Source: Closterium sp. NIES-65 (Eukaryota > Streptophyta > Zygnematophyceae > Desmidiales > Closteriaceae). From it: a stretch of 64,000 nt of DNA. The stretch covers positions 682,001 through 746,000 of the forward strand of contig CANXME010002675.1 of assembly GCA_948144175.1 (NCBI GenBank), given 5' to 3'. Numbering within the stretch: the stretch's first letter is position 1; every line of letters starts with the position of its first letter. Positions 2,847 to 46,235 of the stretch are shown here, in pieces. A program made the position numbers and the translations under genes. The notes beneath the pieces were generated by a model. That model saw only the letters and a list, made by a program, of their open reading frames with translations, did not search any database and was not told where the DNA came from.

Positions 2847-2918
2847 AAATCTTTACGAAAATCAGCTCACTGGCTCAATCCCCACTGCAATCACCAACCT
2901 TGCAAACCTAGTCGTCAT
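2847..2918 (+). CDS. LRR exon L1
   Basis: This 72-nt exon follows a CAG acceptor and precedes a GTAAGT donor. It encodes one 24-residue LRR ([18 protein letters not shown]...). Its phase, one nucleotide in front and two at the end, matches every other LRR exon of the locus. Confidence 0.75.
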
Positions 2919-5900
2919 GTAAGTAGAGATGAGCAGGTGGTGGTGAGCCCTGTAGAAGATGGATAGGTGAACATCAGGGCACAATGGGAAGAAGATCATA
3001 TCCTTAGCGAGAAGATGGTACAAGCCTCAAAGGCGAGGCAGAGTGTTCTCTAATCATAATATCTTGGGAAGTAGTGTAGCCATAGATGTATGGCTGAACA
3101 CTTGAGGCTAGCTGCCGCCCTATAAGTTGAGGGCAAGGCTAGCCAACCTTGCCAAGCTAGCAAGTGAGGCCTCTTGTTGCACATGCAGGTCAGGCTGGAA
3201 CATATGGCACACCATAGGGGCCAGAAATGTGAATATGGAATGCCAGAAATGTGAATAAGGAATGCCAGAAATGAGAATAAGGAATGCCAGAAATGTGAAT
3301 AAGGAATGCCAGAAATGTGAATAAGGAATGCCAGAAATGTGAATAAGGAATGCCAGAAACGTGAATAAGGAATGCGAGAAATGTGAATATAGAACATATG
3401 GCGCATCATAAGTGGCAAGGCCAGCAGTGACCACACTTCACGGTAGTTGAGTGTGGTGGGGTATGGACATCCCATGGTGAGCATAAATATGAGAGGAGAA
3501 AGTGCAGTGTCTAAACTGATCCACTTTGGTTTGAAACAAACCAGCTCGTGATTGGATGTTAGAGTGGCCAAACCCAAACCTGATTGGGTTCGAGCCCCAC
3601 TAATCAGCGCCGAACCGTTCAAGTTCGGTTGCCTGGACCGAATGTAAACAACAGTGTACTTAAGCAGCTGTAGGCTGCCTACTGATTCAAAATCAGTACG
3701 ACACACACATAACTAGGGTGTTGTTACTGGAGACGTTGAATTGCCATATAATGGGATCCGCTGTTCCACTGAGTCTAAGTTGTGCAATCGTCAATTCAAG
3801 GGTAACCTGTTTGACCCGAAACTTGAGCTTCTTGAATGCTCGACCCGTTCATCATTGCAGGTCACTCATCTTTGCAAGCTTCTTGCGTCCTTCTCTTCCT
3901 CCCTTCACAGCACTCTGTCTCGTTGTTTTCTGTCCCTATTCCTCTATATAGTTTCCGCCTCTCTGACACCCTCTCCCGTGTTCTCTTCCTTGGGCCATTC
4001 TATATGTCAATGGCACTCCTTGGGGCACACAAAGTGCATGTTGCTTCTCACATCTTCTGCTCCCACCTATCCTATGCCAGCGTTAGCTCACATTCACGGA
4101 CAATGTCCATGTTGCTGCATTTCATTCCTTCGTTGCATTCTCGGAAATCTCGCCCTCAAGTGGAGCTGCGCTGGTTGAGCTTCTTGTGCCTACTACACGC
4201 GCATTCATGCTCATCGTGGCAGAGATCTCAGTAGCAATCAACTCACTGGCACAATTCCAGCTTTAATGGGGCACTTTGCAGACCTGACTTATTTGTAAGC
4301 TCCCGGCAAGGCCTATGCTTGGCTGTACTCTAGCTTATTCTCGTCTCTAGTGTCCGCCATTTCTCCTTCTTTTGATGCTAGTCCTGTCCTATGCCATCCA
4401 TTCTCCTCTCTTCCTTCTTATCCAGGTCTCTCATGTGTTCGTCCTCGTGACCATTCTACGCGTGGATGGCACTAGGGCACTTACAGAGCACATCTTTCCT
4501 CACTTCTCGTGTCCCCGTCTATCCCTTGCCACTGTCCGCACACATCTCACTGACAATGTCCATCGTGCTGCGTTTCATGCCGTTCTTACATTCGAAGTAA
4601 TTTCGCATCGTAATGGAGTTGCTTGTTCCAACTGAGCTTGGTGCCATGCAAACTTGAGGTTCCTGCATCCACCGCATGCCCATTCATGAGCAAATCCCGA
4701 ACACGAACGAGCTTGGGTCGATCGTCTATTGAACTCGTTTAGCGGGCGAACTGAACGTGTTTGGTTTCGGCCCAAAAGCTTCTATAAAATTTTTGTCGGG
4801 GTGTTAGTCTTTGTAGGTGAACACTTATGTATTTGCCTCGAACACCACAATCATGTTCGAGGCAAACATGTTTGTGTGTGTTCGCCTAGGGGGTGCATTT
4901 CGCTTTAGTCACATTACAGACGACATTCAATTCTGCAATGTACTTGAGAACCTTACTCCTTGAATATTTCGATTACAACGATTGTCAATGAAATGAAGCC
5001 CCAGCAAGGTATAACGGAGGAGGACCTAGCTAGGCGGGAACCTCAGTAGGCAAGGTTGGGTGCTGGTCTGGAAATGCCAAGCCCGAAGGCAACGCGAGTC
5101 AGTGGCCTCAGGTGGCGAGGTCATCGGATCGAGCCTAGTCTTCCAAAAAGGTGAAGCGTTGTTGCGTAAGCTCAGAAAGGAATAGAAAAAATTTATAGAA
5201 TGCCCTTTAGCCTTTTGGCCAATCACAGACGTGAGTGCGAATTTTTAGAACGGATCTATTTGATCCAGTATTGGCAACATGCGTAGCTTGTAACGTATGT
5301 CAGTATTTGGGCACCAGGTTTCCTTCTGAGGAATCACCCGATGCTGGCATTGGTATTCCCTTCCTTTTACCTGACATTCCTTGCTTCCCTTTGCCATGCA
5401 GGCATGAGATAATGATCAAACATGTGTTCGGTTCAACTAGAACACGTAGCTATTCAATTCAACCATGTTCGTTTCGCTCGAGAATTTCAGCCATGGAGAG
5501 TTGAACAAAAAAATGTTTGACTGCACATGTTGTGCGTCGCAAAGACTCTTGTGTTCACGTCAACAATCACGCGGCTTGGGACGCGCTGGTTGACATTCTA
5601 GATCCATATTTTTTTTAGCTCATACGCCCTCATGCCCGCCCCACAAGGCTCCGTTCTCATGTTTGATTATAAGAAGCCAACTTGTTGATTTTTTTTAGAG
5701 TAATCGGTCTTTTACCCGCCGTATACCGTGTTCGACACGGGGCGTCGATGAACACCAATGTGTTTGTCAACGATTTGACCCGCGACCAATGTTTAGGTCG
5801 CGGGTCAGTGTGCTTGGGCTCATTTTTCGAGCGAGCATCACTTCTCCATCATAGACATATAGTACAACTTTCCACACTTTTCCTGCCCTCATCTATCCCC

Positions 5901-8900
5901 TGCCGTTATCAGCACACTTCCCGTGGACGTTGTCCATCACTCTGCCATTCTTGACTTGTTTGCGATTTCAGGGATATTGCCTCCCATTATGATTGTAGTT
6001 ACTTCTTCCTATCTGCTGCTCGTTGCCATGCAAACCTGAGCTTCGTGTATGTACCGCATGCCCGTTCACGCCCATCGTGGAAGAGATCTTTCGAGCAATC
6101 AGCTCTCTGGTGCAATTCCCACTGCAATAGGCAACCTTTCAAACATGAATTACCTGTAAGCCCCTTTGCTTGGCTGTGTTTCCCTTTCTGCGCTTCTCTT
6201 TCACTTTGTATCCTGCATATAAGCTATATAGATTGGGTATAGTGTGTAAAAATTTGAGGTAAATTCTATGAAATAAATAATGAGCTCAAGGTACATCAGA
6301 AACGGCTTGAAATGAATGGGAAGACCGATCTCAAACAGGCTGAAATCTTCAATTGGTGAGATCAGCTGAAGTGATTGAACCCTAAACAGAATGTTGAGTT
6401 TTTGGCTCACAATTGGGTAAGGTCGGGACGGAGATAAGCATCGAACATGACTTCCATTCGGTTTGACTGAACGGGTTTCTCCACAGGTCGAACCAGACCT
6501 TTCCTTAGCAAAAAACGTTCGTGCCGAACTGTACAAGTTTGAGGCATCACCTTACCTCGTAGGCATCACCTTACCTCGTAGGCATCACGTTTGCAAAAAA
6601 CGTTCGTCCCGAACCGAATCAACTCGGTCGAGCAGTTTGACGCATCACCTTACCTCTTAGGCAACACCTCGTACCCACCCAAGCAAACCACGCACCTACC
6701 CACTTGCATATGGGTGTGGTGTGAAGTTGAAGGTTCATTTTAGGGCGAGTTCATTTTACAGCATTCCGTTCAGGGTTTAGCTCCATCTGCATGACTTAGG
6801 CGTGTAGGGCTCTTAAAGGCAATTAGGGGCTGTTCTTTGATAATAGGTTCAATATGGCCACATCATGGGGAGCAGGCAACCAGGCCGTGAGAGAGAGGCC
6901 AGGTCCAAGCGTGACCCTTTTGCTCCCGTGACCCGACGTCGGCGATTTTGGTAGTTGAACAGAACCTGTTCGTGTTTGGGTCGATTCTGACCTTCCAGAT
7001 CTTGAACCTCCAGATCTTGAACCTCCAGATCTTGAACCTCCAGATCTTGAACCTCCAGATCTTGAACCTCCAGATCTTGAACCTCCAGATCTTGAACCTC
7101 CAGATCTTGAACCTCCAGATCTTGAACCTCCAGATCTTGAACCTCCAGATCGTGAACCTCCAGATCTTGAACCTCCAGATCTTGAACCTCCAGATCTTGA
7201 ACCTCCAGATCTTGAACCTCTCCATTGCATGTTTTTGTTTGTTTGTAACAAACAGGTTCGTTTTGACTAGGAAAGAAGTTTGACAAGGCTTGGCGAACCT
7301 GTTTGGGTCCGGTTCATGCTCATGTCTAGGTTGGGGTGTTGCTTTTTGCTGCTATAGTGTCTTTCCCTTTTGTCTTCCTTTTCCTTGCGCAAATTGCGAG
7401 GTACCTTAGGGAAAGCATGGAACACGTCTTTCCTCACTTCCGGTCCCTTTGTATCCTCTGCCATTGGCAGCACACATCTCACAGACAAAGTCCATTGCTC
7501 AGCATTTCATGCCTCTGTTGCAACATCTGCAATTTTTCCTCCTAAAGGAGTTGCTTGCTCCTTTCCTTTCTCGTTGTGCAATCGTCAGCTCCAAGTATAA
7601 TGCCATTCGTGTTCATCGTTGCAGATATCTTCAGTACAATCAGCTCACTGGCTCAATCCCCGCTGCAATCGGCACCCTTACAAACCTGGAACACCTGTAA
7701 GCAGGAACGAGCAAGTACTGTACTCGAACCGGTTTAGGCCAAACCTGGTCGAACCGGGAGGTGTAGTCAAACAGGGCCAGCCTAAACTGCATGTGGAAAA
7801 ACACACTTAATGTGCATAATGTGCACAAGGAGGAACTGGTTCAGTAATGCTTGAGAAATGATCCACAAACTGTTAAGAACCAAAGAGCAAGATGCTATGT
7901 TATCATAATCTGAAAAAGCTGAAGTGAAAGGAGTTGGTTTGGAGAGATGCTGTGCTTCAAGGAGATCTGAAAAGCTCAATGTCTCTTGCAGAGGATTCTC
8001 ATGCAACACTTAGATGTTCGTGTAGAGCGAACCGAACATGTTCGCTGTTCGCCCGTTGCTCATGTCTAGATTAGGGTGTAACATTTTCAGTACACTTCGC
8101 TCATTTCCTTTTGTCGCTATCTACAATTTGCCTCTCCTGTTCCCTCTCCTATGCCCAGTTGCCTCCGCAAATTATGATGTGCCTTGGGCCACGCTAAGAA
8201 CACGTCTGTCCTCACTTCTCCTACCCCTTTCTATCCCCTGCCATCGTCAACACACATCTTATGGAGAAAGTCTATCGCACAGCCTTTCATGCCTCTGTTA
8301 CATTTTCAGGAATTTCGCCTCTCAATGGAGTTGCTTTTTCCTATCCCTGCTCGTTTCCATGCAATCTTCAGCTCGTCGTAACTGACTGATGCATGCCCAT
8401 TCGTGTTCACCACCGCAGATTGCTTGATCATAATCGGCTCACTGGCTCAATCCCTACTGCAATTGGCAACCTTGCAAACCTAAAAAGCCTGTAAGTAGGC
8501 AAGAGCACATACCGAACCCAAATTGTTCAGGTCAAACCTGGTCGAACTGGCGGCATGAATAGTTTGACCCTTGTCGGGCCACGACTAGACCTAGTAGGTT
8601 TCCGGTGAGGGTAATATACGTGGCCCTGACATTGTTTTCGAAAATAAGTACTATTGATGTTCGTTTACGTCGCAGATTTCGCCGATCCGTCGAACGTGGC
8701 CAGAAGTGACCACGTTCAAATGTACGTGCTTGCGCACGTTCATCAACAGATTCAACTTTCGTTCTACTGCCATTTCTTGGGCAATTGGCAGTTTTCACTC
8801 GGCGAGGCGAGCTGAGTAGAAAAATACTCACTTTTTACTCGTTACAAAGAGATGAGGAAGAAAACCGACTTTGTCAACCTGTCACGCCGGAATCACATTG

Positions 8901-11900
8901 AGCAATTACATGTTCGTCTATTGCTTCTTCTTTATGCAATACAGCCCCTTGGCTTTCCAGTCATTGCAACGATTCTCTTTTTCACACCTTGTGTTCATTG
9001 CAGACATCTTAATAACAATCAGCTCACTGGCTCAATCCCCACTACAATCAGCATGGTTACAAATCTAGAAGGCCTGTAAGTATGCATGTGCAAGTGCCGA
9101 ACCCAAACCGGTTCCGTCGAACCTGGTCGAATTGGCGGGCGTAGTTGAACGAAGCGAAGCACTTTGTTTCGGATTGAACCAGCCTAACAGCTTATGGTTC
9201 GATGTTCAAGCGCTCACATCCGAACCTCAATGGGTTTGAATCGCACTGGTGCAGCTCGTGCTGAACCGGTTTAAGAACTTAAGTATGTAAGCACCTGAGT
9301 ACCTAATGCTCCAAAATCTGTACAACACAGATGTAACTAGATCATTGTTACTTGGAATGGGAAAGGAAAGTGAGCTCCAAGGTTGCGTTGCTATGTAGTG
9401 GGACCCACCGCGGAGTTTGATTCGCACGACCACTTCTATTTGGGGGAACAAGTTCGACCTGAAATAGATCGATAAGAAAAATGTCCCTAATTGAGGCAAA
9501 CCAGTTCCCAAGCAGCATGTCTCTCCTCACTCCCCCTACCACCATCTACTCTTTGCCAATGTCAGTTTACATCCCACAATCAATGTCGTTCTGCACATCA
9601 TGCCTCTGTTGCATTTCCATAAAGTTCGCTCCAACAGAGTATCTTCCTCCTGTCTCCAGCTCGTTTCCATGCAAGCTTGAGCTTCCTGTATCTACCGCAT
9701 GCCCATGCATGCTCATTGTGGCAGAGGGCTTTCTAGCAATCAACTCACTGGTGTGATTCCCACTGCAGTAAGCTGCCTTGTAAAGCTAAATTACATGTAA
9801 GCCCCGTTACTTGGCCGTGTTTCCCTTGTGCCCGTCCCCTCCATGATTTTCCCTCCATGACTTTCCTTCCATGTGATGTGTGTAAGCCACATTGCTTGGG
9901 TACAATCTGTAAGAACTTGAGGTAGATTTTTCTCTCCCCTCCTTCATTTTCTTTGTCATTTTCGTGTAATCTCTGGGTGTCTGTCTCGATAGACAGAATA
10001 GTGGATATCTTTGAAAACACGGTCGAGGCCTTGAAAATAAAGAGGATTAGGGTGTAACATTTTCAGTACGCTTCGCTCATTTCCTTTCGTCACTATCTAC
10101 AATTTGCCTCTCCTGTTCCCTCTCCTATGCTTAATTGCCTCTGCAAATTATGATGTGCCTTGGGCCACGCTAAGAACACGTCTATCCTCACTTCTCCTAC
10201 CCCTTTCTATCCCCTGCCATCGTCAACACACATCTTATGGAGAAAGTCTATCGCACAGCCTTTCATGCCTCTGTTACATTTTCAGGAATTTCGCCTCTCA
10301 ATGGAGTTGCTTTTTCCTATCCCTGCTCGTTTCCATGCAATCTTCAGCTCGTCGTATCTGAATGATGCATGCCCATTCGTGTTCACCAACGCAGATGGCT
10401 TGATCAGAATCAGCTCACTGGCTCAATCCCTATTGCAATTGGCAACCTTGCAAACCTAGAACGCCTGTAAGTAGGCAAGAGTAGACATGAGCAAAAATTC
10501 GAACCCCTGTTCGGTTCGGCTTCGAAGTGTTCGACTCGAACGTGTTCGACTGTTTTTTTTTTTCCCAAAATTGTTCGTGACGAACACCGTTGTGTTCGTC
10601 ACAAACACGTTCGACTGTTCGAGTGTTCATGTGCAGAAAAATGCACAAACACCTAGGTGTTCGCTAACACAATGTGTTCGTCACAAACACCCGGGTGTTC
10701 GAGGGAAAATTAGGCGCGTCAAAGTTTCACGCGCTGGATCTTAAAGGGGAAAGCGACGATGAGCCCAATCGGCGATAAAGCCTAAGGATGGCATTCCGCC
10801 CCCTACCCACGGTTAAAATTTCACATTGTGGCCGGAAATGTTAGGTATAAGGTTGGATAAGGGTAGGAGACGGTTAAAAAAGGAACTGAGGGCATTTCGG
10901 TTTAGGTTGGAGTTTAGCAAGGCAAAATTGGATATCCACCAGATCTGCGCCAAGCCTAACTATATCTGTTGTAGGGCTATAGGGAATGTGATATTGCTTC
11001 TAGTACACTCGCACTGCCTGAATGTGACTATAATGAAAGAATCCCCCAAGGCAAACTGTTCGAGTTCGAGTCAAACACCTTAGTGTTCGGCCTTGCCTAA
11101 AAAATGTTCGACCCTATACTCGGACGGGGAACACTAACATTTAAGAAAACCGTTCGAGTCACACGTGTTTGGTTCGGTTCGAGTTGACCAAGTGTTCGCA
11201 AACTGTTCGAAACAAACGTGTTCGGTTCGCCCGTTGCTCATGTCTAGGCAAGAGCAGATACGGAACCCGAATTGTTCAGGTCGAACCTGGTCGAACTGGC
11301 GGCATGAAGACGAGGGGTGGAAGCAGAGAGAGGAGGAAATGGTCGGTCTTTGTGATCTTCCGAATGCAGCTCTCAATGACGCCATTCTCCTTAGGGGAGT
11401 ACGGGAGGGTGTGAGTCTGATCTGGTGGATGCCATACGCGGCACAGTAGGAGGCAGGCAGGGGTCTTGTTTAGAGAACTCTTTTCTGCCGTTGAGTGCAA
11501 GGCTGTTCTGTCCTATTGATGACCATAGCAGATGCCTCGACCTTGGTATGAAGGAACAAGGTCGAGGAGTACCTGTTAGACGTGAGCAACAGGAGGACTC
11601 GAACATGTTCTTACGAACAGTTTCGAACGCGTGAGATACCTGAACCAAACTCGAACGGTTCAATTCCAAACTCGCTATGAAGGGGGGGATTCGTGGTTAA
11701 CCCGTTTGTTAACGATCCGCTGTGTAGGGGTCGATTCGTGGTTCGATTATAGATTAACAAACCAAACCGATTGTTCCTGAGCTAGTGCGCTTCGATACTA
11801 AACCAAACCGATTCGATTTGGTTGATATCCTTCACATCGCACTACTTGTGACGCTTTAAACGAACCAAATTGACAAACTAACTGGTTTATCACAAATCAG

Positions 11901-14900
11901 TTCGTCACAAACTAGTTTCATAAAAAAATGGTTTGGTTCAGGTAATACCGAAAGCACGCACGCCATATGCGAAGCGCACACGCGCGTGTCAGAACATATA
12001 GCTTACTTGTTTCTGTAGGCTATAGTGGGGTATCCCATAAGGGGTACAACCCAATCAGGGTTTCCTATTTGTACTCACTTCGTTCATAGTCATTTCATCC
12101 TCGTTCATTTCTTCTCATGGTATCGAGCAGGTTCCCCTGTGGGAACTGTTCGTAGGGCCCACCACCGCTACCGCTTAACTTTTTTTTCTGCCCGGAGCGC
12201 GCTCCGGGCCCTCGTACTTCCTTTTTTTTCGATCTGCCCTAGTGCTCTGACGGCCGCCCGCCCTAGCGCCCGAGCGCCGCCGCCCTTGCGCCCTGACGGC
12301 CGCCCGCCCTAGCGCCCTGACGGCCGCCCGCCCTAGCGCCCTGACGGCCGCCCGCCCTAGCGCCCTGACGGCCGCCCGCCCTAGCGCCCGAGCGCCGCCC
12401 GCCCTAGCGCCCGAGCGCCGCCCGCCCTAGCGCCCGAGCGCCGCCCGCCCTAGCGCCCGAGCGCCGCCCGCCCTAGCGCCCTGACGGCCGCCCGCCCTAG
12501 CGCCAGTGCGCCGCTCGCCCTAGCGCCCTGACGGCCGCCCGCCCTAGCGCCCGTGCGCCACTCGCCCTAGCGCCCTGACGGCCGCCCGCCCTAGAGCCCT
12601 GTCGGCCGCCCGCCCTAGCACCCGAGCGCCGCCCGCCCTAGCGCCCGAGCGCAGCCCGCCCTAGCGCCCTGACGGCCGCCCGCCCTAGCGCCCGTGCGCC
12701 GCTCGCCCTAGCGCCCGAGCGCCGCCCGCCCTTTCGCCCTTACGGCCGCCCGCCCTGACGCCTGAGCGCCGTCCGTCGTCGCCCCAGCGCCCTAGCGCCC
12801 GACGCCCGCGAGCCGCCCGTCGCAGCCGCCCGTGAGCTGCCTGTACGCCGCCCGCCGAGCCTCTCGTGCACCCGCCGTCCCTGAGCCGCCCGCGCCGCCG
12901 TCCCTGAGCCGCCTGTGCAGCCGCCCGCGAGCCGCCAGCGAGCTGCCCGTCGCGACGCCCGCGCCGCACGAGCCGCCCGTACACCTGAGCCGCCCGAGCC
13001 GCCCGAGCCGCTCGCGCCGCCCCAGCAACCCGAGCCGCCCGAGCCGCCCGAGCCGCCCGAGCCGCCCGAGCCGCCCGCGCCGCCCCAGCGACCCGAGCCG
13101 CCCGAGCCGCCCGGGCAATCTGAGGAGCCGAGCTCCTGCTCCTGCGTGGCTGCTGCTGCTCCGAGGCGTGCGCAGCTGCTGTTCTGCCGAGTTGCTGAGC
13201 CGCTGTGCTACCCGACTCTTCGTGCCCGGTGAGACAATCAGCTGCTGCAATGGCCACCCCCAGTGTCCTGTCTTTTGACACTGAGGGTCGCGCCATTGAC
13301 TTTCCAGTCTGGATTGAGGACCTGCAGCTGTACTTACTGTGCGATGCGATCGATGAGGTTTCTCTCTTTGACTTTGTCTCTGGAGCTGTCCCTGCCCCTC
13401 CTGCTGATGCTGACCCTGCTGTTCGCTCCAAGTGGGCCACACGCGATGCTGCTGCACGTCTTGCTGTGCGTCGCCACCTCCCTTCCTCCGAGCGTGCCCA
13501 CTTTAGTCAGTGCAAGACCGCTCAGGCTTGTACGACGCTGTAGTTACACGCTACTCCTCCCCTTCCTCCGCTACGCTGAGCCGCCTCATGCTACCGTTTC
13601 TCTTCCCTGACCTCGCTGCCTTTCCCACTGTCGCTGACCTCGTTACCCACCTCCGCGCTAGTGACGCTCGCTACCGCGCTGCCCTTCCTGCTGAGTTCCG
13701 CGCCGCAAACCCTCCTCCCATGTACATCACTCTCTACTTTCTTGTCACCCGTCTCCCTGAGTCCCTTCGTGTCGTTAGGGACCAGTTTCTCTCTGTCTGT
13801 CCCACCACCCTCACTGTCGACCTCCTTGAGGAGTCCCTGCTAGCGGCTGAGAAGAGCATCGTCGCTGTAGGGGCCTCTCGGGGTGACCCTCGCACCCCCA
13901 TCTTTGAGGGGTGTTCTCCTTCCCCCCTGCTGCCCTCTGTCGCCTCTGCCGCTGCGGCCGACCTCGCTGGTTTTGAGTCGGTCGGTGCGGCGTCTGCCCC
14001 CAGCGGTAGACGCCGCTCTGGCAAGGGCAAGGGGGGCAAGGGAGCGGGTGGAGCTAGAGGGGGCAGTGGAGGCGGAGGAGGTGGGGGTGGCGGAGGGAGT
14101 GGGGGTGGCGGTGGAGGTGGTGGCGGGAGTGGAGGTACTGGTGGAGGCGGTGGAGGCGGAGGTGGCGGCGGAGGCGGTGGCGGAGGAGGCGGGGGCGAGG
14201 GTACCGGTGGGGGCGGTGGCGGTGGAGACGGGGGTGGCGGTGGAGGCGGGAGTGGCGGTGGCGGCGGGGGTCGGAGTGGCTCGTCCCAGCGGAGCAGCTC
14301 TGGGGGTGGCCAGCGCCAGCAGCAGCAGCGCTCTCGCACCGTCCCCGCCCCTCAGCAGCTCCGTAAGTGGTACTTGCAGCGTCAGCGTGGTGGTGCGTTT
14401 GGTCCCTGCCCCTACGTTCTTCGCACCGGTGACCGTGCGGGGGAGAGGTGTGGAGGCACCCACGCAGCCCGCCGCTGCTTTGGCCGCCTGACCGACGCTT
14501 GGCGTCAGCAGTTTCCAGAGGCCGCTGAAATCCCCCACTGGGGGGAGCTGTCTAGGGCTGGTGTAGCCATTTATGATCTTGACTTTGATGCTATTCTTTC
14601 TGCTATGTATGCTGTGACTGTTAGTGATGAGGATGACTGTTACCGGTGTTTCCCGCCCGACCCGGGCATTGGTACTGCTGCGTCAGATGCTAGTGAGGCT
14701 GCTGCTCTAGGTGCCAGTGCGTCTGTGCTCTCAGGTACTGGTGAGTTTGCCCTCTCAGGTACTGTGTCGGCTTCGGCCTCTCACACCTTCACCCTTGACT
14801 CTGGAGCGTCTCGCTCCTTCTTTCGGGACCGCACCACTCTCACGCCGCTGAGTCGGCCGGTTGCGGTGTCCCTGGCTGACCCCTCTGGGGGGCCTGTCCT

Positions 14901-17900
14901 GTCTCGCTTCTCCACGGTCCTTCCGTGTCCTGCGGCCCCCTCTGGCACCCTGTCTGGTCTCTACCTCCCCTCGTTCTCGAAGAACCTGGTGAGTGGTGCT
15001 GACCTACAGGATGCGGGTGTCCACCAGTTCACTCCTGCTCGTCAGCGAGTGACCCACTGCACGGAGGCTAGCACGGGACGCCACCTGGCTACGTTTACAC
15101 GTCGGCCAGGGTCGAGCCTGTACACACTGACCACTGCTTCTCCTCCAGGTGCTGAGTCTGGTAGGGTCCCTTCGTCTGGTCAGGTGTTTGCCGCAGCGTC
15201 CAGGTCTGGTCCTGAGTCTGCCCCCTGTTCGTGTCGTCGTCTGTCTCACGAGACCCTCCTCTGGCACCACCGCCTTGGCCACCCCTCTCTGCTTCGGCTC
15301 AGAGGCATGGCCTCCCGTCTTCTTGTGTCTGGTCTCCCCCGGTCTCTACCTCCCCTTCCTCAGGGCCCTGGCCCTGCCTGTGTCCCCTGTGTCGAGGGGC
15401 GCCAGCGTGCTGCCCCTCACTCCTCCCAGTTTCCTCCGACAGAGGCCCCGTTGCAGACGCTTCACATGGACGTGTGGGGCCCAGCCCGCGTCCGTGGACA
15501 GGGTCAGGAGCGCTACTTCCTGCTCGTTGTTGACGACTACTCGCGTTACACCACGGTCTTCCCCTTGCGCAGCAAGGGTGAGGTCACTGAGGTGCTGATC
15601 GACTGGATCCGCGCAGCTCGTCTTCAGCTCAGGCAGAGCTTTGGCTCCGACTTTCCTGTGTTGCGTCTGCACTCGGACAGAGGCGGAGAGTTCTCCTCTG
15701 GCCTTCTGCGTGCCTACTGTCGTGCACGAGGCATCCGCCAGTCCTTCACGCTTCCGGACTCCCCGCAGCAAAATGGGATTGCTGAGCGCCGCATTGGCAT
15801 GGTCATGGACGTCGCCCGTACGTCCATGATGCATGCGGCTGCCCCCCATTTTCTGTGGCCGTTTGCGGTCAGGTACGCCGCGCATCAGATCAACCTCCAC
15901 CCCAGGGTCTCCAGGCCGGAGACCTCCCCAGCCCTGCTGTGGACGGGGAAGGTTGGCGATGCGTCGGCGTTCCGGGTCTGGGGATCTCGGGCGTTTGTCC
16001 GCGACTTGTCTGCGGACAAGCTGTCCCCTCGCGCTGCTCCCTGCGTCTTCCTGGGGTTCCCCCCCGACGCCCCTGGGTGGCAGTTCTACCACCCCACCTC
16101 TCGACGTGTTCTGTCCTCCCAGGACGTCACGTTCGACAAGTCGGTACCCTACTACCGCCTCTTCCCCTACCGCACTCCGTCCCTCCCCCCACCCCCGCTC
16201 TTCTTGGTACCAGGTCCCCCCCCGGTAGACCCCCTCCCCCCTCAGGGTCCTGCCCCTTCAGGTGTGTCCCAGGTAGACGCGGTCGAGCCTGTCGAGGTCA
16301 CTGGTGACTCTGGTGCTGCTGCGGGAGCTGAGCCTGGGGGTGCGGAGCCTGGGGGTGCGGAGTCTGGGGGTGCTGTGCCTGGGGGTGCGGAGCCTGGGGG
16401 TGCGGAGTCTGGGGGTGCTGAGCCTGGGGGTGCTGAGCCTGGAGGTGCCGAGCCTGGGGGTGCTGAGCCTGGGGGTGCTGAGCCTGGGGGTGCTGAGCCT
16501 GGGGGTGCTGAGCCTGGGGGTGCTGTGCCTGGGGGTGCTTCGTCTCGCCGGGAGCCACTCTCCCCACAGGAGCTGCGTGAGTGGTTTGCCAGGCGCTGGA
16601 GGCGTGCTGCTGGTGCTGGTGGTTCTTCGGCTGCAGAGGGTACTGCTGCCGCGCGTCCCGGAGGTGCTCGTACTGTGGGTGCTGGAGCTGCTGGGTCTGA
16701 GGGTTCTCCTGGAGCTGGTGCTGCTGAGGGTGTTGGCGCTGTGCGTGCCGCTGGCGGTCCGACTGACAGTGCTCCTGGTGCTGCTGCTGGAGGTTCTGGT
16801 GCTGCTGCTAGAGGTTCTGGTGCTGCTGGAGGTGCTACTGTAGTGGGTGCTCCTGCTGGGGGTACTGGTGCTGTTCCTGCTGTTTCTGGCGTCGCCGCGC
16901 GGCCCCGACCGTACTTCGTTCCGCTCCTGCAGCAGGTTCTTGGTCTTACACCTCCTCCTCCCTTAGAGGGTCCGCAGCCTGTCCGGTCACAGCCACAGCT
17001 ACAGCCTACCTCCCCTTTGCCTGCTCCTTCTCCCTACGCTGGTCCGACTGGAGGTCTTACTGAGCGTCGTGAGCCTGCGTCTCGTCCTGCGTTGCCTGTT
17101 CGTACTGAGCGCGCTAGTGGTCGCGGGTCGCGTCAGCGTCCTCCTCCTGTCCCTGGCACGCACCGGATGTCACTGCGTCCGTCCACTGCTCCTCTACGTG
17201 CCCCTTTGCCTTCTCCTCCTGCTTCCTCTCTTCCTGCTCTTGCCGACCCGGAGTCGGACTCTCTTCGTGCTGCCAGTCCTACTGTCACGCGTCTTCTTGC
17301 TACTGCTGTCACTGACTCTTCCTTCGGGTCGTCTGCTGCGTCTGCCCTTGTCACTGAGCTTGTCGACTTTGCTGCGCGCTGTCGTCTAGACTACGCTGCC
17401 AGTCTTGTCGGTGAGTCTGAGTCTGCGTGTCCTCCGTCCGTCGGGGGTGAGTGTGCCCTCGGCACGGACGTCCTTGAGGACAGGCAGGAGGAGTTCCAGT
17501 GTCTGGCAGCCGCTTCACCTCATCTCGCGTCTGTACTGCTAGCCCCTGAGGGAGACCCGGATGCACCAGACATCCCGACTCCGCGCTCTTACGCGGAGGC
17601 GATAGAGGGTCCCTACTCCTCTCAGTGGCAGGCAGCTACGGATGCAGAGATGGCTTCCTGGAAGTCCACAGGCACCTACGTCGACGCTGTTCCCCCTCTT
17701 GGGGCGAACATCGTCAGTGGCATGTGGATTTTCAGGGTGAAGCGGCCGCCGGGTTCACCGCCTGTCTTCAAGGCGCGTTACGTGGCTCGTGGCTTCAGTC
17801 AGCGGCAGGGGTTTGACTACTTTCAGACCTTCTCCCCCACCCCAAAGATGACTACTCTTCGGGTTCTGCTGCACGTTGCTGCTCACCGTGACTACGAGCT

Positions 17901-20900
17901 GCACTCTCTCGACTTCAGCACAGCTTTCTTGCAGGGCAGTCTGCACGAGGAGATCTGGCTGCGTCGCCCACCTGGCTTCACTGGGTCTTTCCCTCCTGGT
18001 ACCCAGTGGAGTCTCCGGCGTCCAGTCTACGGTCTCCGCCAGGCGCCTCGTGAGTGGCACGACACACTGAGGACTACGCTCGCGGCACTTGGGTTTGCTC
18101 CGTCTACTGCCGACCCGTCGCTGTTTCTGCGCACCGACACCTCTCTGCCGCCGTTCTACATCCTCGTGTACGTCGACGACTTGGTCTTTGCCACAGCTGA
18201 CACTGCTGGACTCGCCTACGTGAAGTCCGAGCTGCAGAAGAGACACACGTGCACTGACCTGGGTGAACTGCGTAGCTACCTTGGCTTGCAGATCACCCGG
18301 GACAGAGCGCGCCGCACCATTACCCTGACTCAGTCACACATGGTGCAGCAGGTCCTTCAGCGCTTCGGCTTCACGTACTCCTCGCCTCAGGCCACTCCTC
18401 TGCCTACTCGCCACTCACTCTCAGCTCTGCCTTCGGATGAGTCCGTAGAGTCGAGTGGCCCGTTTGCAGAGCTTGTTGGCTGCCTCATGTACCTGATGAC
18501 CTGCACACGTCCTGACCTTGCATACCCTCTTAGCATTCTCGCACGCTATGTTGCTCCTGGGAGACACCGACCAGAGCACATGGCTGCATCGAAGAGGGTG
18601 TTGCGCTACTTGTGCAGCACGTCGGGCATGGGGCTAGTGCTTGGAGGGCGCAGTCCAGTGGTCCTCACTGGGCACGCAGACGCTTCTTGGGCTGACGACC
18701 AGGCTACGCAGCGGTCGTCACAGGGTTACACCTTCAGCCTTGGTTCCGGCTCTGTTTCGTGGCGGGCTACCCGCTCGTCTTCTGTTCTCGGCTCCAGTTG
18801 TGAGGCTGAGATCTACGCTGGGGCTATGGCTGCGCAGGAGTTACGTTGGCTCACCTACCTGCTGACCGACCTTGGAGAGCAGCCTCGTTCTCCTCCAGTC
18901 CTGTATGTAGACAACAAGGCCATGCTGGCCTTGTGTCGAGAGCAGCGACTGGAGCACAGAACGAAGCACATTGCTCTCCGCTACTTTCTTGCTCGTGAGC
19001 TACAGCAGCGTGGACAGTTGCGACTTGCGTACGTGGCCTCTGAGGCCAACACTGCTGATGTCTTCACCAAGGCACTTGCGCCTTGTGATCATCAGCGTTG
19101 TTGCACGCAGTTGGGTCTTGTGCCTGTCTTGCCTCACTTGCTCTCCTCTTGACCTTGCTTGTACCTTCGCCTATATATACTCTTGTTCTTGCTTGTTTGC
19201 CTCTTGTATATCTCTATATATGATCTTGCATGTGAACTGGCCTTCTGGCCTTTGAACTTGTGCTCGGAATGCGTGGTGACTTTGTGATCCACCCTGAGCT
19301 TTGCTTTGCTTTGCTTGACTGGTCTTGTGACCCCTTGTTCTCCCCCACTTTGCCTATGGGGGTGTGTCAGAACATATAGCTTACTTGTTTCTGTAGGCTA
19401 TAGTGGGGTATCCCATAAGGGGTACAACCCAATCAGGGTTTCCTATTTGTACTCACTTCGTTCATAGTCATTTCATCCTCGTTCACTTCTTCTCAGCGCG
19501 CGTGCTTAATAATAAGGAAACTGACAACGCGATAGAGTGAAAATGCGAAATCAGGGAAGCGGACAGTGGGAACAAGACTGGGAGAAACGGGAGGAGAATT
19601 GTCAAACAAATAATGGGAATTGCTCAGAGGAGAGAGGAGATTTCCTACATTTCCAAGGATGTAGCTTTTGATCTATCTTACGACAGCCCTAGGTGATGCC
19701 TAGGAGAGTAGGTAAGGTAGGTTGACAAGTGACTCGAACATGTTTTGTTTGACACAATTTGACTAAACAAGTTGAACTGAACCAGATTGTTTGACCCGAA
19801 GAATTATATTTTGTAACTTACATGTTTGAGTCAAACAAAACCTGTTTTCTGTTCGACTCAAACATGGTTGAAATTTGCCCATGCCTAGATACGGATCGGG
19901 TCGGGTCGGGTCGGGATGACCCGGTCAGGTCGAGCCCACTACGGGGGCAACCTGCCTCAGCAAAATACCGGGGGTCGACCTGACCGGACATTACGCTATT
20001 TTAAGGCCTAGTCTCTGCACAACCTTTGTAATCTTCTCTCCATTCCTTTCATTTCCTTTTGTTGCTATCTTGACTTCGCGTTGCCCTTTCCCTTTCCTAT
20101 GCTCAATCCCCGCACAAATTAGGATTTGTCTTGGAGCAAGAACACGCCTCTCCTCACTTCTCTTGCCCCCCTCTATCCCATGGCATTGTCAAAACACATC
20201 TCATGAAGAAAGTCCCTTGCACAGCCTTACATTAACAGGAATTTTGCCTGCCAATAAAGTTGTTTGCTCTTATACCAGAACTGTATCTGACTCATGCATG
20301 CCCTGTTGTGATCATTGGCGCAGAAATCTTTACGAAAATCAGCTCACTGGCTCAATCCCCACTGCAATCACCAACCTTGCAAACCTAGTCGTCATGTAAG
20401 TAGAGATGAGCAGGTGGTGGTGAGCCCTGTAGAAGATGGATAGGTGAACATCAGGGCACAATGGGAAGAAGATCATATCCTTAGCGAGAAGATGGTACAA
20501 GCCTCAGAGGCGAGGCAGAGTGTTCTCTAATCATAATATCTTGGGAAGTAGTGTAGCCATAGATGTATGGCTGAACACTTGAGGCTAGCTGCCGCCCTAT
20601 AAGTTGAGGGCAAGGCTAGCCAACCTTGCCAAGCTAGCAAGTGAGGCCTCTTGTTGCACATGCAGGTCAGGCTGGAACATATGGCACACCATAGGGGCCA
20701 GAAATGTGAATATGGAATGCCAGAAATGTGAATAAGGAATGCCAGAAATGAGAATAAGGAATGCCAGAAATGTGAATAAGGAATGCCAGAAATGTGAATA
20801 AGGAATGCCAGAAATGTGAATAAGGAATGCCAGAAACGTGAATAAGGAATGCGAGAAATGTGAATATAGAACATATGGCGCATCATAAGTGGCAAGGCCA

Positions 20901-23900
20901 GCAGTGACCACACTTCACGGTAGTTGAGTGTGGTGGGGTATGGACATCCCATGGTGAGCATAAATATGAGAGGAGAAAGTGCAGTGTCTAAACTGATCCA
21001 CTTTGGTTTGAAACAAACCAGCTCGTGATTGGATGTTAGAGTGGCCAAACCCAAACCTGATTGGGTTCGAGCCCCACTAATCAGCGCCGAACCGTTCAAG
21101 TTCGGTTGCCTGGACCGAATGTAAACAACAGTGTACTTAAGCAGCTGTAGGCTGCCTACTGATTCAAAATCAGTACGACACACACATAACTAGGGTGTTG
21201 TTACTGGAGACGTTGAATTGCCATATAATGGGATCCGCTGTTCCACTGAGTCTAAGTTGCGCAATCGTCAATTCAAGGGTAACCTGTTTGACCCGAAACT
21301 TGAGCTTCTTGAATGCTCGACCCGTTCATCATTGCGGGTCACTCATCTTTGCAAGCTTCTTGCGTCCTTCTCTTCCTCCCTTCACAGCACTCTGTCTCGT
21401 TGTTTTCTGTCCCTATTCCTCTATATAGTTTCCGCCTCTCTGACACCCTCTCCCGTGTTCTCTTCCTTGGGCCATTCTATATGTCAATGGCACTCCTTGG
21501 GGCACACAAAGTGCATGTTGCTTCTCACATCTTCTGCTCCCACCTATCCTATGCCAGCGTTAGCTCACATTCACGGACAATGTCCATGTTGCTGCATTTC
21601 ATTCCTTCGTTGCATTCTCGGAAATCTCGCCCTCAAGTGGAGCTGCGCTGGTTGAGCTTCCTGTGCCTACTACACGCGCATTCATGCTCATCGTGGCAGA
21701 GATCTCAGTAGCAATCAACTCACTGGCACAATTCCAGCTTTAATGGGGCACTTTGCAGACCTGACTTATTTGTAAGCTCCCGGCAAGGCCTATGCTTGGC
21801 TGTACTCTAGCTTATTCTCGTCTCTAGTGTCCGCCATTTCTCCTTCTTTTGATGCTAGTCCTGTCCTATGCCATCCATTCTCCTCTCTTCCTTCTTATCC
21901 AGGTCTCTCATGTGTTCGTCCTCGTGACCATTCTACGCGTGGATGGCACTAGGGCACTTACAGAGCACATCTTTCCTCACTTCTCGTGTCCCCATCTATC
22001 CCTTGCCACTGTCCGCACACATCTCACTGACAATGTCCATCGTGCTGCGTTTCATGCCGTTCTTACATTCGAAGTAATTTCGCATCGTAATGGAGTTGCT
22101 TGTTCCAACTGAGCTTGGTGCCATGCAAACTTGAGGTTCCTGCATCCACCGCATGCCCATTCATGAGCAAATCCCGAACACGAACGAGCTTGGGTCGATC
22201 GTCTATTGAACTCGTTTAGCGGGCGAACTGAACGTGTTTGGTTTCGGCCCAAAAGCTTCTATAAAATTTTTGTCGGGGTGTTAGTCTTTGTAGGTGAACA
22301 CTTATGTATTTGCCTCGAACACCACAATCATGTTCGAGGCAAACATGTTTGTGTGTGTTCGCCTAGGGGGTGCATTTCGCTTTAGTCACATTACAGACGA
22401 CATTCAATTCTGCAATGTACTTGAGAACCTTACTCCTTGAATATTTCGATTACAACGATTGTCAATGAAATGAAGCCCCAGCAAGGTATAACGGAGGAGG
22501 ACCTAGCTAGGCGGGAACCTCAGTAGGCAAGGTTGGGTGCTGGTCTGGAAATGCCAAGCCCGAAGGCAACGCGAGTCAGTGGCCTCAGGTGGCGAGGTCA
22601 TCGGATCGAGCCTAGTCTTCCAAAAAGGTGAAGCGTTGTTGCGTAAGCTCAGAAAGGAATAGAAAAAATTTATAGAATGCCCTTTAGCCTTTTGGCCAAT
22701 CACAGACGTGAGTGCGAATTTTTAGAACGGATCTATTTGATCCAGTATTGGCAACATGCGTAGCTTGTAACGTATGTCAGTATTTGGGCACCAGGTTTCC
22801 TTCTGAGGAATCACCCGATGCTGGCATTGGTATTCCCTTCCTTTTACCTGACATTCCTTGCTTCCCTTTGCCATGCAGGCATGAGATAATGATCAAACAT
22901 GTGTTCGGTTCAACTAGAACACGTAGCTATTCAATTCAACCATGTTCGTTTCGCTCGAGAATTTCAGCCATGGAGAGTTGAACAAAAAAATGTTTGACTG
23001 CACATGTTGTGCGTCGCAAAGACTCTTGTGTTCACGTCAACAATCACGCGGCTTGGGACGCGCTGGTTGACATTCTAGATCCATATTTTTTTTAGCTCAT
23101 ACGCCCTCATGCCCGCCCCACAAGGCTCCGTTCTCATGTTTGATTATAAGAAGCCAACTTGTTGATTTTTTTTAGAGTAATCGGTCTTTTACCCGCCGTA
23201 TACCGTGTTCGACACGGGGCGTCGATGAACACCAATGTGTTTGTCAACGATTTGACCCGCGACCAATGTTTAGGTCGCGGGTCAGTGTGCTTGGGCTCAT
23301 TTTTCGAGCGAGCATCACTTCTCCATCATAGACATATAGTACAACTTTCCACACTTTTCCTGCCCTCATCTATCCCCTGCCGTTATCAGCACACTTCCCG
23401 TGGACGTTGTCCATCACTCTGCCATTCTTGACTTGTTTGCGATTTCAGGGATATTGCCTCCCATTATGATTGTAGTTACTTCTTCCTATCTGCTGCTCGT
23501 TGCCATGCAAACCTGAGCTTCGTGTATGTACCGCATGCCCGTTCACGCCCATCGTGGAAGAGATCTTTCGAGCAATCAGCTCTCTGGTGCAATTCCCACT
23601 GCAATAGGCAACCTTTCAAACATGAATTACCTGTAAGCCCCTTTGCTTGGCTGTGTTTCCCTTTCTGCGCTTCTCTTTCACTTTGTATCCTGCATATAAG
23701 CTATATAGATTGGGTATAGTGTGTAAAAATTTGAGGTAAATTCTATGAAATAAATAATGAGCTCAAGGTACATCAGAAACGGCTTGAAATGAATGGGAAG
23801 ACCGATCTCAAACAGGCTGAAATCTTCAATTGGTGAGATCAGCTGAAGTGATTGAACCCTAAACAGAATGTTGAGTTTTTGGCTCACAATTGGGTAAGGT

Positions 23901-26900
23901 CGGGACGGAGATAAGCATCGAACATGACTTCCATTTGGTTTGACTGAACGGGTTTCTCCACAGGTCGAACCAGACCTTTCCTTAGCAAAAAACGTTCGTG
24001 CCGAACTGTACAAGTTTGAGGCATCACCTTACCTCGTAGGCATCACCTTACCTCGTAGGCATCACGTTTGCAAAAAACGTTCGTCCCGAACCGAATCAAC
24101 TCGGTCGAGCAGTTTGACGCATCACCTTACCTCTTAGGCAACACCTCGTACCCACCCAAGCAAACCACGCACCTACCCACTTGCATATGGGTGTGGTGTG
24201 AAGTTGAAGGTTCATTTTAGGGCGAGTTCATTTTACAGCATTCCGTTCAGGGTTTAGCTCCATCTGCATGACTTAGGCGTGTAGGGCTCTTAAAGGCAAT
24301 TAGGGGCTGTTCTTTGATAATAGGTTCAATATGGCCACATCATGGGGAGCAGGCAACCAGGCCGTGAGAGAGAGGCCAGGTCCAAGCGTGACCCTTTTGC
24401 TCCCGTGACCCGACGTCGGCGATTTTGGTAGTTGAACAGAACCTGTTCGTGTTTGGGTCGATTCTGACCTTCCAGATCTTGAACCTCCAGATCTTGAACC
24501 TCCAGATCTTGAACCTCCAGATCTTGAACCTCCAGATCTTGAACCTCCAGATTTTGAACCTCCAGATCTTGAACCTCCAGATCTTGAACCTCCAGATCTT
24601 GAACCTCCAGATCTTGAACCTCCAGATCTTGAACCTCCAGATCTTGAACCTCCAGATCGTGAACCTCCAGATCTTGAACCTCCAGATCTTGAACCTCCAG
24701 ATCTTGAACCTCCAGATCTTGAACCTCTCCATTGCATGTTTTTGTTTGTTTGTAACAAACAGGTTCGTTTTGACTAGGAAAGAAGTTTGACAAGGCTTGG
24801 CGAACCTGTTTGGGTCCGGTTCATGCTCATGTCTAGGTTGGGGTGTTGCTTTTTGCTGCTATAGTGTCTTTCCCTTTTGTCTTTTCCTTGCGCAAATTGC
24901 GAGGTCCCTTAGGGAAAGCACGGAACACGTCCTTCCTCACTTCTGGTCCCTTTGTATCCCCTGCCATTGGCAGCACACATCTCACAGACAAAGTCCATTG
25001 CTCAGCATTTCATGCCTCTGTTGCAACATCTGCAATTTTTCCTCCTAAAGGAGCTGCTTGCTCCTTTCCTTTCTCGTTGTGCAATCGTCAGCTCCAAGTA
25101 TAATGCCATTCGTATTCATCGTTGCAGGTATCTTCAGTACAATCAGCTCACTGGCTCAATCCCCGCTGCAATCGGCACCCTTACAAACCTGAAACACCTG
25201 TAAGCAGGCACGAGCAAGTACAGTACTCGAACCGGTTCAGGCCAAACCTGGTCGAACCGGGAGGTGTAGTCAAACAGGGCCAGCCTGAACTGCATGTGGA
25301 AGAACATACTTAATGTGCATAATATTGCAAGCTTTTGCTTGTCATTGTTGTACCTGGAAATATTGTAAGCTGTTTATTGTTGTCCACCGCATGGTGCGTG
25401 GCCTGGCCACACATCCAGCATTGGCGCTGGCAGCGTGCGCAGCCGAAAAGAAACCGTCATCACACACATGCATGCATCACCGTTGTCATTCAGAATAAGG
25501 GCATTACCTTTCAGCAAGTTCTTGGCTCTTTCCGGTTCTCTCTCCTTCTGAGTCGACTCAAAAGTGTTTCTCCACGTCACCTCATATTGTGCTTGCATGT
25601 GTGAATAAAGGAATCTCCACACGAATAACCTTTCGGGGACCATTCCACCATCCACTGGAAGCCTTCTCTACTTGCAAAACTTGGAAGCTTTTATACCACG
25701 ATGCGTGTGTTCTGTTCTTGGAATCTACTACCGTGCCTGGGAAGGTGACCATGCCTAACCAACATTTCAAAAGCCATGGGTTGTCTATTCTTGCTCTCCT
25801 CTCCATGGCAGCACTATATGGGGCACCAACCTCACATGTCCAGCTGACGAAACCAGCTGTGTCACGAAGCAAAATCCTGTGACCGCCTTTTGCCGAAAGT
25901 GCCGTTCCTTTTGCACAACCTGCCTAAATTCTACATGTGAGTGCAGCGCACTGCATCATTGCATTAACAAAGATTCTATGAACAAAAGAAACAGCACATT
26001 CTGTCACTTGCCCATTTAACTCCAATAGCTCTAAGCTACCTAGGTTGAGTGATTGCATCAATCATTCGCCTAGGTTACAAGACTTTCTTAACCTTGTTTC
26101 TCCGGACGTTCTTTTGAGATTTCTCTAGTGCAACTGCCGGCCCAAACCTCACCCAAGTGACCTCACCCAAGTGACCTCAACTCATGTGAACTTTCTGAGC
26201 CTGTTTCTTTGGGCTGCTGGCAGCTGTCTCCCCAACCCCACCCACCCCATCGGCAGCGAGCCCCAACACCAGCAGCAGCAGCAGCGGTAGCAGCAGCAGC
26301 AGCGGTAGCAGCGGTGGCTTACCGTGGGCGACAATCATTGGCATAAGTGTTGCTGCCGTGCTTCTGCTGGTGCTGCTGCTAGTTGCTGTGCTGCTCTACC
26401 TCCGGCACAAGCCATCAGGTGGGAAGGAACGTTGTACCATTGTACATCGTAGAAATTGGTGGCTATAAGTGCCTGAGGTCAAGAAGTCATACAGCCAGAA
26501 GGTCCTTTGGAAAGGAAGCAAGCAAAAGATGAGAGGAGCGGGCACAGACCAACTAGCAATCTGACAACGTGCTGTGATTCTTGGGAGGCTCCTGGGTAAG
26601 TTTTGAGGCGATTCAGAAATCAACAGGTGGGAAGGAAGCATTGGTAGAGGAAAAGGACACCAAGTACATAGCAAAGGGGTAAGTGGGAAGAGATGAGTGG
26701 GATAAGGGGGTCCCATTGACTTTAGCCGCGACCTCCAATAGATAGAGGTTGGAATCTTGTTCTCACGGAAACTAGTGTAAGCACAAACACGCAAAACTGG
26801 TCAAGAATTTTATTATTCGATTTGGTTCTGTTGTATTTCGTGGTGTGTGTGTTGGGGGGGGGAGGGTTGGGGGGTGGGGGGTGCCAATGGAATCTGTTCA

Positions 26901-29900: not shown

Positions 29901-31498
29901 CTAGCGCCCGAGCGCCGCCCGCCCTTTCGCCCTTACGGCCGCCCGCCCTGACGCCTGAGCGCCGTCCGTCGTCGCCCCAGCGCCCTAGCGCCCGACGCCC
30001 GCGAGCCACCCGTCGCAGCCGCCCGTGAGCTGCCTGTACGCTGCCCGCCGAGCCTCCCGTGCACCCGCCGTCCCTGAGCCGCCCGCGCCGCCGTCCCTGA
30101 GCCGCCTGTGCAGCCGCCCGCGAGCCGCCAGCGAGCCGCCCGTCGCGACGCCCGCGCCGCACGAGCCGCCCGTACACCTGAGCCGCCCGAGCCGCCCGAG
30201 CCGCCCGCGCCGCCCCAGCAACCCGAGCCGCCCGAGCCGCCCGAGCCGCCCGAGCCGCCCGCGCCGCCCCAGCGACCCGAGCCGCCCGAGCCGCCCGGGC
30301 AATCTGAGGAGCCGAGCTCCTGCTCTTGCGTGGCTGCTGCTGCTCCGAGGCGTGCGCAGCTGCTGTTCTGCCGAGTTGCTGAGCCGCTGTGCTACCCGAC
30401 TCTTCGTGCCCAGTGAGACAATCAGCTGCTGCAATGGCCACCCCCAGTGTCCTGTCTTTTGACACTGAGGGTCGCGCCATTGACTTTCCAGTCTGGATTG
30501 AGGACCTGCAGCTGTACTTACTGTGCGATGCGATCGATGAGGTTTCTCTCTTTGACTTTGTCTCTGGAGCTGTCCCTGCCCCTCCTGCTGATGCTGACCC
30601 TGCTGTTCGCTCCAAGTGGGCCACACGCGATGCTGCTGCACGTCTTGCTGTGCGTCGCCACCTCCCTTCCTCCGAGCGTGCCCACTTTAGTCAGTGCAAG
30701 ACCGCTCAGGCCTTGTACGACGCTGTAGTTACACGCTACTCCTCCCCTTCCTCCGCTACGCTGAGCCGCCTCATGCTACCGTTTCTCTTCCCTGACCTCG
30801 CTGCCTTTCCCACTGTCGCTGACCTCGTTACCCACCTCCGCGCTAGTGACGCTCGCTACCGCGCTGCCCTTCCTGCTGAGTTCCGCGCCGCAAACCCTCC
30901 TCCCATGTACATCACTCTCTACTTTCTCGTCACCCGTCTCCCTGAGTCCCTTCGTGTCGTTAGGGACCAGTTTCTCTCTGTCTGTCCCACCACCCTCACT
31001 GTCGACCTCCTTGAGGAGTCCCTGGTAGCGGCTGAGAAGAGCATCGTCGCTGTAGGGGCCTCTCGGGGTGACCCTCGCACCCCCATCTTTGAGGGGTGTT
31101 CTCCTTCCCCCCTGCTGCCCTCTGTCGCCTCTGCCGCTGCGGCCGACCTCGCTGGTTTTGAGTCGGTCGGTGCGGCGTCTGCCCCCAGCGGTAGACGCCG
31201 CTCTGGCAAGGGCAAGGGGGGCAAGGGAGCGGGTGGAGCTAGAGGGGGCAGTGGAGGCGGAGGAGGTGGGGGTGGCGGAGGGAGTGGGGGTGGCGGTGGA
31301 GGTGGTGGCGGGAGTGGAGGTACTGGTGGAGGCGGTGGAGGCGGAGGTGGCGGCGGAGGCGGTGGCGGAGGAGGCGGGGGCGAGGGTACCGGTGGGGGCG
31401 GTGGCGGTGGAGACGGGGGTGGCGGTGGAGGCGGGAGTGGCGGTGGCGGCGGGGGTCGGAGTGGCTCGTCCCAGCGGAGCAGCTCTGGGGGTGGCCAG

Positions 31499-31530
<32 letters not shown>

Positions 31531-40626: not shown

Positions 40627-40698
40627 AGATCTTTCGAGCAATCAGCTCTCTGGTGCAATTCCCACTGCAATAGGCAACCTTTCAAACATGAATTACAT
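40627..40698 (+). CDS. LRR exon of paralogue (L3-type)
   Basis: This 72-nt exon encodes [18 protein letters not shown] and the rest of one LRR. Its GCAG acceptor is probably the ancestral form of the GAAG seen at 6083 and 23560. Confidence 0.7.
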
Positions 40699-43135: not shown

Positions 43136-43179
<44 letters not shown>

Positions 43180-46100: not shown

Positions 46101-46235
46101 GAGGGAAGCATGCACGTCCTACCTTGGGTGAGCACCACCACCGCCACCGCCACCACCGCAACCGCCACCACCACCACCGCCGCCGCCGCCGCCGCCGCCA
46201 CCACCACCACCACCGCCACCACCGCCGCCGCCACC

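Follow-up and report, generated by a model that had tools for sequence, protein, structure and literature searches.

Analysis of a window of 64,000 nt (C2377:682001-746000, within an 874-Mb assembly) led to a gene that is predicted to be a plant-type leucine-rich repeat (LRR) receptor kinase of the RLK/Pelle family, and whose ectodomain is, with a probability that we put at roughly 0.7, encoded by a chain of 72-nt phase 2-2 exons in an array that changes by unequal exchange and deletion. This exon layout permits changes of ectodomain length that stay in frame, and two copies of the gene, on contigs C2377 and C1703, indicate that such changes occurred recently, by one exon and by eight. An initial annotation of this DNA had proposed that the ectodomain could change its length by recombination, and the proposal is supported by these two near-identical copies, which differ by one exon and by an eight-exon unit. 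The array would grow and shrink by unequal exchange between kilobase-long homologous blocks of introns and exons, which now carry a copia-type element; single exons would also be lost through end-joining deletions, which would stay in frame owing to the symmetry of all LRR exons. Should the host be a conjugating green alga, the locus would bear on the origin of receptor diversity before land plants. The grounds for such a host are thin: the plant-type receptor kinase, 98 GRAS matches (gene pieces, counted among the best candidates only) and the lack of a match to radial spoke protein 3 agree with a conjugating green alga and equally with a seed plant, and the radial spoke search, which gave no match in any of its 14 control genomes either, shows little.

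Exon design and the receptor model

The window holds 16 LRR exons (eight at 2847-10466, five at 20324-25682 and three at 40627-42565), whose types are named here after their first residues. As had been claimed for the thirteen exons of a first locus and the three of a paralogue, all of them (16/16) are 72 nt long and of phase 2, with one leading and two trailing codon bases, and each encodes one 24-residue repeat; in the concave strand, the codon for the first hydrophobic residue is interrupted by the intron (xxL/xLxx, the slash marking the intron). An AG acceptor is present in 16/16 and a GT donor in 15/16, and over the LRR exons of C2377 both signals are kept in 27 of 28. Scores of the window exons against a DNA profile were far beyond chance (E 6e-16 to 5e-29), with the profile trained on 18 exons from both loci and several of the 16 scored exons among the training set. 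When 144 kb of C2377 and 120 kb of C1703 were searched with this profile, no further plus-strand match at E<0.001 appeared outside the two arrays, in a setting where the diverged first LRR exon scored only 0.008, so that distant exons could escape. Rfam and tRNA scans gave no match.

The thirteen exons are not the whole of the first locus: 12 more LRR exons and a 5' end lie upstream, and four of the 13 are recent duplicates of four others, because positions 1-7820 and 17478-25323 form a tandem copy with 99.2% identity in a self-alignment. One complete array of 13 independent exons was rejected on account of this tandem copy and of the upstream exons and 5' end. The start of the gene (C2377:662328) lies 19.7 kb upstream of the window. 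The spliced model comprises 35 exons over 57,093 bp and 1,117 residues, without internal stop and with all phases matching, and the introns reach about 9.9 kb. The domain order is a signal-peptide-like start (MELLWVLRALALAWCLAVPLVNA, judged by eye in the model), an LRRNT domain, 25 LRR exons, a cysteine cap, a transmembrane segment and an RLK/Pelle kinase. Omission of the NLHT exon, which has lost its donor, gives an open model of 1,093 residues, and reading through it leads to a stop at 25756.

The annotation as an LRR receptor was borne out by Pfam matches to LRR_1, LRR_8 and Pkinase (4.7e-36) on a shortened model and by plant LRR receptors among the best matches in the PDB. The Lys, HRD and DFG motifs of the kinase are present, these motifs and the transmembrane segment being judged by eye. 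The nearest PDB chains to the kinase are 3hgk and 2qkw (titled 'protein kinase', and which we take to be Pto), FERONIA, BRI1 and CERK1, and a piece of the ectodomain is nearest to PEPR1, FLS2 and MIK2. No ROC-COR domain appeared among 13 Pfam matches up to E 0.1, obtained with a model without 17 of the 25 LRR exons.

Modules, eight-exon units and the copy on C1703

From the 5' end, the exons run KIPE; YLQY LLDH GLSS WLDQ; NLYE DFSS YLQY LLDH HLNN GLSS WLDQ; a copia-type element; NLYE DLST DLSS YLQY LLDH HLNN GLSS WLDQ; a second such element; NLYE DLST DLSS YLQY NLHT; and then the exons for the cap, transmembrane segment and kinase. Both the first block and the last are incomplete, DLSS is missing from the second block and HLNN has been lost from one block. 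The exons had been described as interchangeable, and this could not be upheld in the sense of free exchange, since the types keep the same order wherever they are present. The recent unit of duplication is not the single exon: it consists of eight exons and a 7.5-kb intronic long terminal repeat (LTR) retrotransposon, 17.5 kb in all. This element is called copia-type by eye, from the domain order of its reading frames, and not by assignment to a family. The left flank is common to five intronic copies of it (two on C2377 and three on C1703) and the right flank to the four complete ones, so that a single insertion was copied along with its unit; the LTR pairs of the four complete copies differ at 1/131 positions each.

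Sharing of introns between exon types was frequent upstream and rare downstream: among the 36 pairs of nine exon types (NLHT standing outside this test), 13 have at least 150 contiguous bp upstream in common and one has at least 100 bp downstream, and in a control with introns shuffled in two-base steps 0 pairs were obtained in each of 20 trials. YLQY, LLDH, WLDQ, NLYE, GLSS and DLSS share 184-350 bp upstream in 12 of their 15 pairs. These six types make up 11 of the 16 window exons, in agreement with the claim that most exons carry a shared upstream intron; HLNN has no such intron, and DLST and DFSS, which occupy equivalent places in two blocks, share contiguously only with one another. Identity among the 13 pairs is 65-75% in 11, 96% in LLDH/WLDQ and 92% in DFSS/DLST. 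The single intron-plus-exon duplicates are, to judge from these identities, mostly old. The youngest of them, LLDH and WLDQ, differ at 11/350 intron and 6/72 exon positions, all six exon changes being nonsynonymous, a borderline excess of exon over intron change (p = 0.052, Fisher test). The proposal that the duplicated module is intron plus exon was thus right as to the existence of such modules (13/36 pairs) and not supported as to recent events, which involve eight exons and the retrotransposon. Additionally, the DLSS-YLQY intron contains a 15-bp tandem repeat of the agatcttgaacctcc type (window about 6990-7220 and 24460-24730), and the second copy exceeds the first by about 30 bp.

The copy on C1703 has the same 5' region as the gene on C2377, from 2092.2 kb. 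In the first YLQY-to-WLDQ block, the two differ at 8/2,488 positions (0.32%), a difference that fits two haplotypes because nine other paired loci, picked by the authors, show 1 to 29 differences over about 3,200 positions. C1703 has 29 LRR exons, all (29/29) with AG and GT and open over 767 residues, against 25 on C2377, and it lacks the last exons before the kinase, which C2377 has. Two differences support the claim that exons are gained and lost in frame. First, a segment of 394 bp (C1703:2095335-2095728) with the first-block HLNN exon is missing from C2377, and the junction shows a 2-bp (GG) overlap; absence of the exon is probably the derived state, since the other six YLQY-WLDQ blocks across both contigs hold HLNN. 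Second, there is at least one extra eight-exon unit: two complete units (NLYE to WLDQ plus copia) occur in C1703, against one complete and one partial terminal unit in C2377. The two terminal units of C1703 differ at 9/8,401 positions, fewer than the contigs do in their first block (p = 0.036), so that the extra unit looks recent.

The kinase end of the C1703 copy was not found: with a 191-base kinase-exon query, identity above 90% was seen only at two places on C2377 among the 40 matches listed. A neighbouring gene of C2377 is without a match on C1703. C1703 may therefore be read as a displaced or misassembled copy and not a simple allele; a rearranged other haplotype, a displaced copy and a misjoin may all be considered. 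Unit copies holding the copia element are only 0.1-0.4% apart and the C1703 copy breaks off inside its third such element, and with the lack of a second copy of the neighbouring gene this raises the question of whether the differences in copy number and exons are artefacts of assembling a near-identical 17.5-kb repeat with a 7.5-kb transposon. This is unlikely: the one-exon deletion is located in the first block, about 2% different from the others, has a clean 2-bp junction and cannot stem from a miscounting of units, and over the compared segments the unit copies show 4 to 19 mutual differences. A wider proposal, that in an algal relative of land plants the ectodomains of a receptor-kinase cluster are diversified in the germ line through gain and loss of whole LRR-exon blocks with an intronic LTR retrotransposon in the unit, such that haplotypes of one individual differ in receptor length, is tentative, and we rate it below an even chance.

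Variation on the predicted ligand face and the possibility of decay

The amino-acid variety of the repeats is concentrated at five concave positions, as measured by exact permutation in five exon types (4/33,649, p = 1.2e-4) and in nine (3/33,649, p = 8.9e-5), where the positions follow the general geometry of LRRs, were picked after the exons had been seen and rest on no structure, and where the mutual relatedness of the exon types makes the test indicative. The ectodomain would bind a variable ligand, because the differences between repeats sit on the predicted ligand face; recognition of microbes or of mating partners may be guessed at as its role.

Several results weigh against the main reading of the locus as a receptor kinase with a changing exon array, in addition to the manner in which the concave positions were picked and to the missing kinase end, unmatched neighbour and doubtful allelic status of the C1703 copy. 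At the concave positions, the ratio of nonsynonymous to synonymous substitution rates (dN/dS) reaches 1.76 for one exon class, with 9 synonymous changes over all pairs, but 0.34 for the other. Among seven block copies, substitutions are as dense in exons (10/360) as in introns (68/2532, p = 0.86), and a similar result was obtained in the five youngest of them (3/360 vs 14/2532, p = 0.46) and with three exons of a paralogous array (9/216 exon vs 40/1,030 intron positions). Such equal density speaks against strong constraint. Finally, exon 25611-25682 is followed directly by GG in place of a GT donor.

On this evidence the locus could be a decaying receptor, that is, a transposon-invaded pseudogene or set of fragments in which the array expands and loses exons unselected. 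The equal substitution density of recent copies, the donor lost at 25683, the copia-type element within a kinase intron, the C1703 copy without its kinase end and the long introns of about 9.9 kb would all agree with decay, which is nevertheless improbable, given the 35-exon model without internal stop or frame break, the AG and GT kept in 27/28 (C2377) and 29/29 (C1703) LRR exons, the kinase motifs and the variation concentrated on the predicted ligand face. Moreover, the exons for the cap, transmembrane segment and kinase show a dN/dS of 0.36 (18 synonymous and 20 nonsynonymous changes) between the two 3' halves of the gene present in the window (copies B and C). Random substitution across exons and introns alike, together with a lack of expression, had been named in the initial annotation as an argument against its own reading; one half of this was borne out, exons of recent copies being as substituted as introns, but with frame and nearly all splice sites intact.

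The second of these 3' halves is the three-exon paralogue of the initial annotation. The three 72-nt exons are there, the third of them (42494) with a GT donor, but the locus is a partial duplicate: its aligned parts show 94-96% identity with the 3' half of the main gene, and no 5' end or 5' exons of its own were found in 40627-46741. An independent receptor at this place was rejected on these grounds. A tandem repeat of about 29 bp is located downstream of the duplicate, at window 48563-49243.

Known systems, feature coordinates and related loci

The exon design is already known from plants and brown algae. In rice, LRR kinases with split LRR domains have 72-nt one-repeat exons and phase-2 introns that split the first Leu of xxLxLxx, and exon duplication and shuffling have been proposed as the origin of this arrangement in plant LRR kinases, with ERECTA, SERK and SYMRK named (PMC3050792). 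The 16/16 window exons share with that description the length, the phase and the splitting of the first Leu (PMC3050792). Unlike the plant split-LRR kinases, the present gene has 25 LRR exons, recent units of eight exons and a retrotransposon, introns up to 9.9 kb and differences in exon number within one assembly.

In brown algae, ROCO and related LRR genes combine 72-bp phase-2 exons with shuffling, alternative splicing and positively selected sites on the concave face (PMC11378527). The present gene resembles them in its 72-bp phase-2 LRR exons, shuffling and concave-face variation; unlike them, it encodes a membrane receptor kinase and not a ROC-COR GTPase, and shows multi-exon block duplication. 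The likeness raises the possibility of combinatorial splicing, in which each transcript would choose among the exons and the kinase ends B and C, in the manner of Dscam or brown algal ROCO. Because of the symmetry of the LRR exons, skipping any of them would be in frame, the open 1,093-residue model results from skipping the exon with the lost donor, and brown algal genes of the same exon form splice alternatively (PMC11378527); even so, we consider such splicing rather unlikely as the explanation, in comparison with an array that changes by unequal exchange and deletion.

In Tetrahymena, 90-bp phase-2 LRR exons have been described with unequal crossing over, a retrotransposon beside the repeats and some kinase fusions, with a total of nearly 50,000 over ten species (PMC6564038). 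Fixed-length phase-2 exons, a retrotransposon by the repeat units and fusion to a kinase are common to both systems (PMC6564038), and unequal crossing over would be as well. Unlike in Tetrahymena, the exons here have 72 and not 90 nt and the element is of the LTR type and not like a long interspersed nuclear element, with one contig cluster examined. Vertebrate glycoprotein hormone receptors also have LRR exons with phase-2 introns, according to a passage of the brown algal article (PMC11378527). They are G-protein-coupled receptors, unlike the product of the present gene. We know of no recent block duplication of this kind in them.

What appears to be new is the unit of exon block plus copia element and the difference in exon number between copies in one assembly. 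No description of either was found among the papers listed on streptophyte-algal receptor kinases and on LRR number, haplotypes and LTR elements, judged by titles and abstract openings, which is weak evidence.

Coordinates of the features of the receptor gene, its partial duplicate and its retrotransposons (window positions, unless a contig is given)
Feature	Coordinates	Strand	Remarks
91-nt exon with signal-peptide-like start	C2377:662328		
LRRNT exon	C2377:663256-663379		
Twelve LRR exons upstream of window	C2377:663617 to 674993		
LRR exon NLYE	2847..2918	+	72 nt, phase 2
LRR exon DLST	4223..4294	+	72 nt, phase 2
LRR exon DLSS	6084..6155	+	72 nt, phase 2
LRR exon YLQY	7625..7696	+	72 nt, phase 2
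LRR exon LLDH	8419..8490	+	72 nt, phase 2; module 96% identical to WLDQ module
LRR exon HLNN	9004..9075	+	72 nt, phase 2
LRR exon GLSS	9725..9796	+	72 nt, phase 2
LRR exon WLDQ	10395..10466	+	72 nt, phase 2; ends eight-exon unit
Copia-type LTR retrotransposon in WLDQ-NLYE intron	11987..19495	+	target-site duplication gcgcg; part of 17.5-kb tandem unit
LRR exon NLYE, following unit	20324..20395	+	
LRR exon DLST, following unit	21700..21771	+	
LRR exon DLSS, following unit	23561..23632	+	
LRR exon YLQY, following unit	25128..25199	+	
Final LRR exon NLHT	25611..25682	+	GG for GT; in-frame skipping or read-through to a stop at 25756 may occur
C-terminal cysteine cap exon	25812..25936	+	
Serine-rich stretch and transmembrane exon	26224..26418	+	by eye
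Kinase exons	27030-27232, 27458-27605, 27900-28039, 28713-28852	+	GC donor at 27900-28039
Copia-type element inside kinase intron	29108..36674	+	target-site duplication gttgg; LTRs identical over 131 bp
Final two kinase exons	36713-36797, 37118-37420	+	
Partial copy of 3' half (LRR exons 40627, 42011, 42494, cap, transmembrane, kinase exons)	40627..46741	+	open frame of 524 residues
LRR exon on C1703	C1703: start 2095536		

Related sequences occur elsewhere on C2377. One-module matches at 544.7, 560.9, 579.8 and 598.6 kb (span 544,671-598,900), 16-19 kb apart and about 91% identical, suggest a second, paralogous array; at the first of these places three exons have the 72-nt form with AG and GT. 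Weaker module matches were found from 119 kb to 1,085 kb on C2377 and also on C1645, C1646 and C2067, among the 40 matches listed per search. Six module matches at C2377:945,661-974,596 recur 108-111 kb further on, at 1,054,120-1,085,349, which points to a large segmental duplication. Additionally, a copy of the receptor 5' region with 98% identity lies on the minus strand at C2377:414,578-415,290, about 250 kb off, and another receptor of the family may start there. LRR-exon-like matches on the minus strand occur downstream of the window (L037 2322-2413 and 2614-2710, E 1e-12 and 7e-16).

Within the window, a kinase-like gene is located on the minus strand at 49648-51781 (GTYRWMAPEA motif, by eye), with an 88-90% identical paralogue at C2377:796,854; none of the 18 matches is a nearer second copy. 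Retroelement-like polyprotein regions, recognised by eye in the list of open reading frames, occupy window 55293-59450 and 60469-63452.

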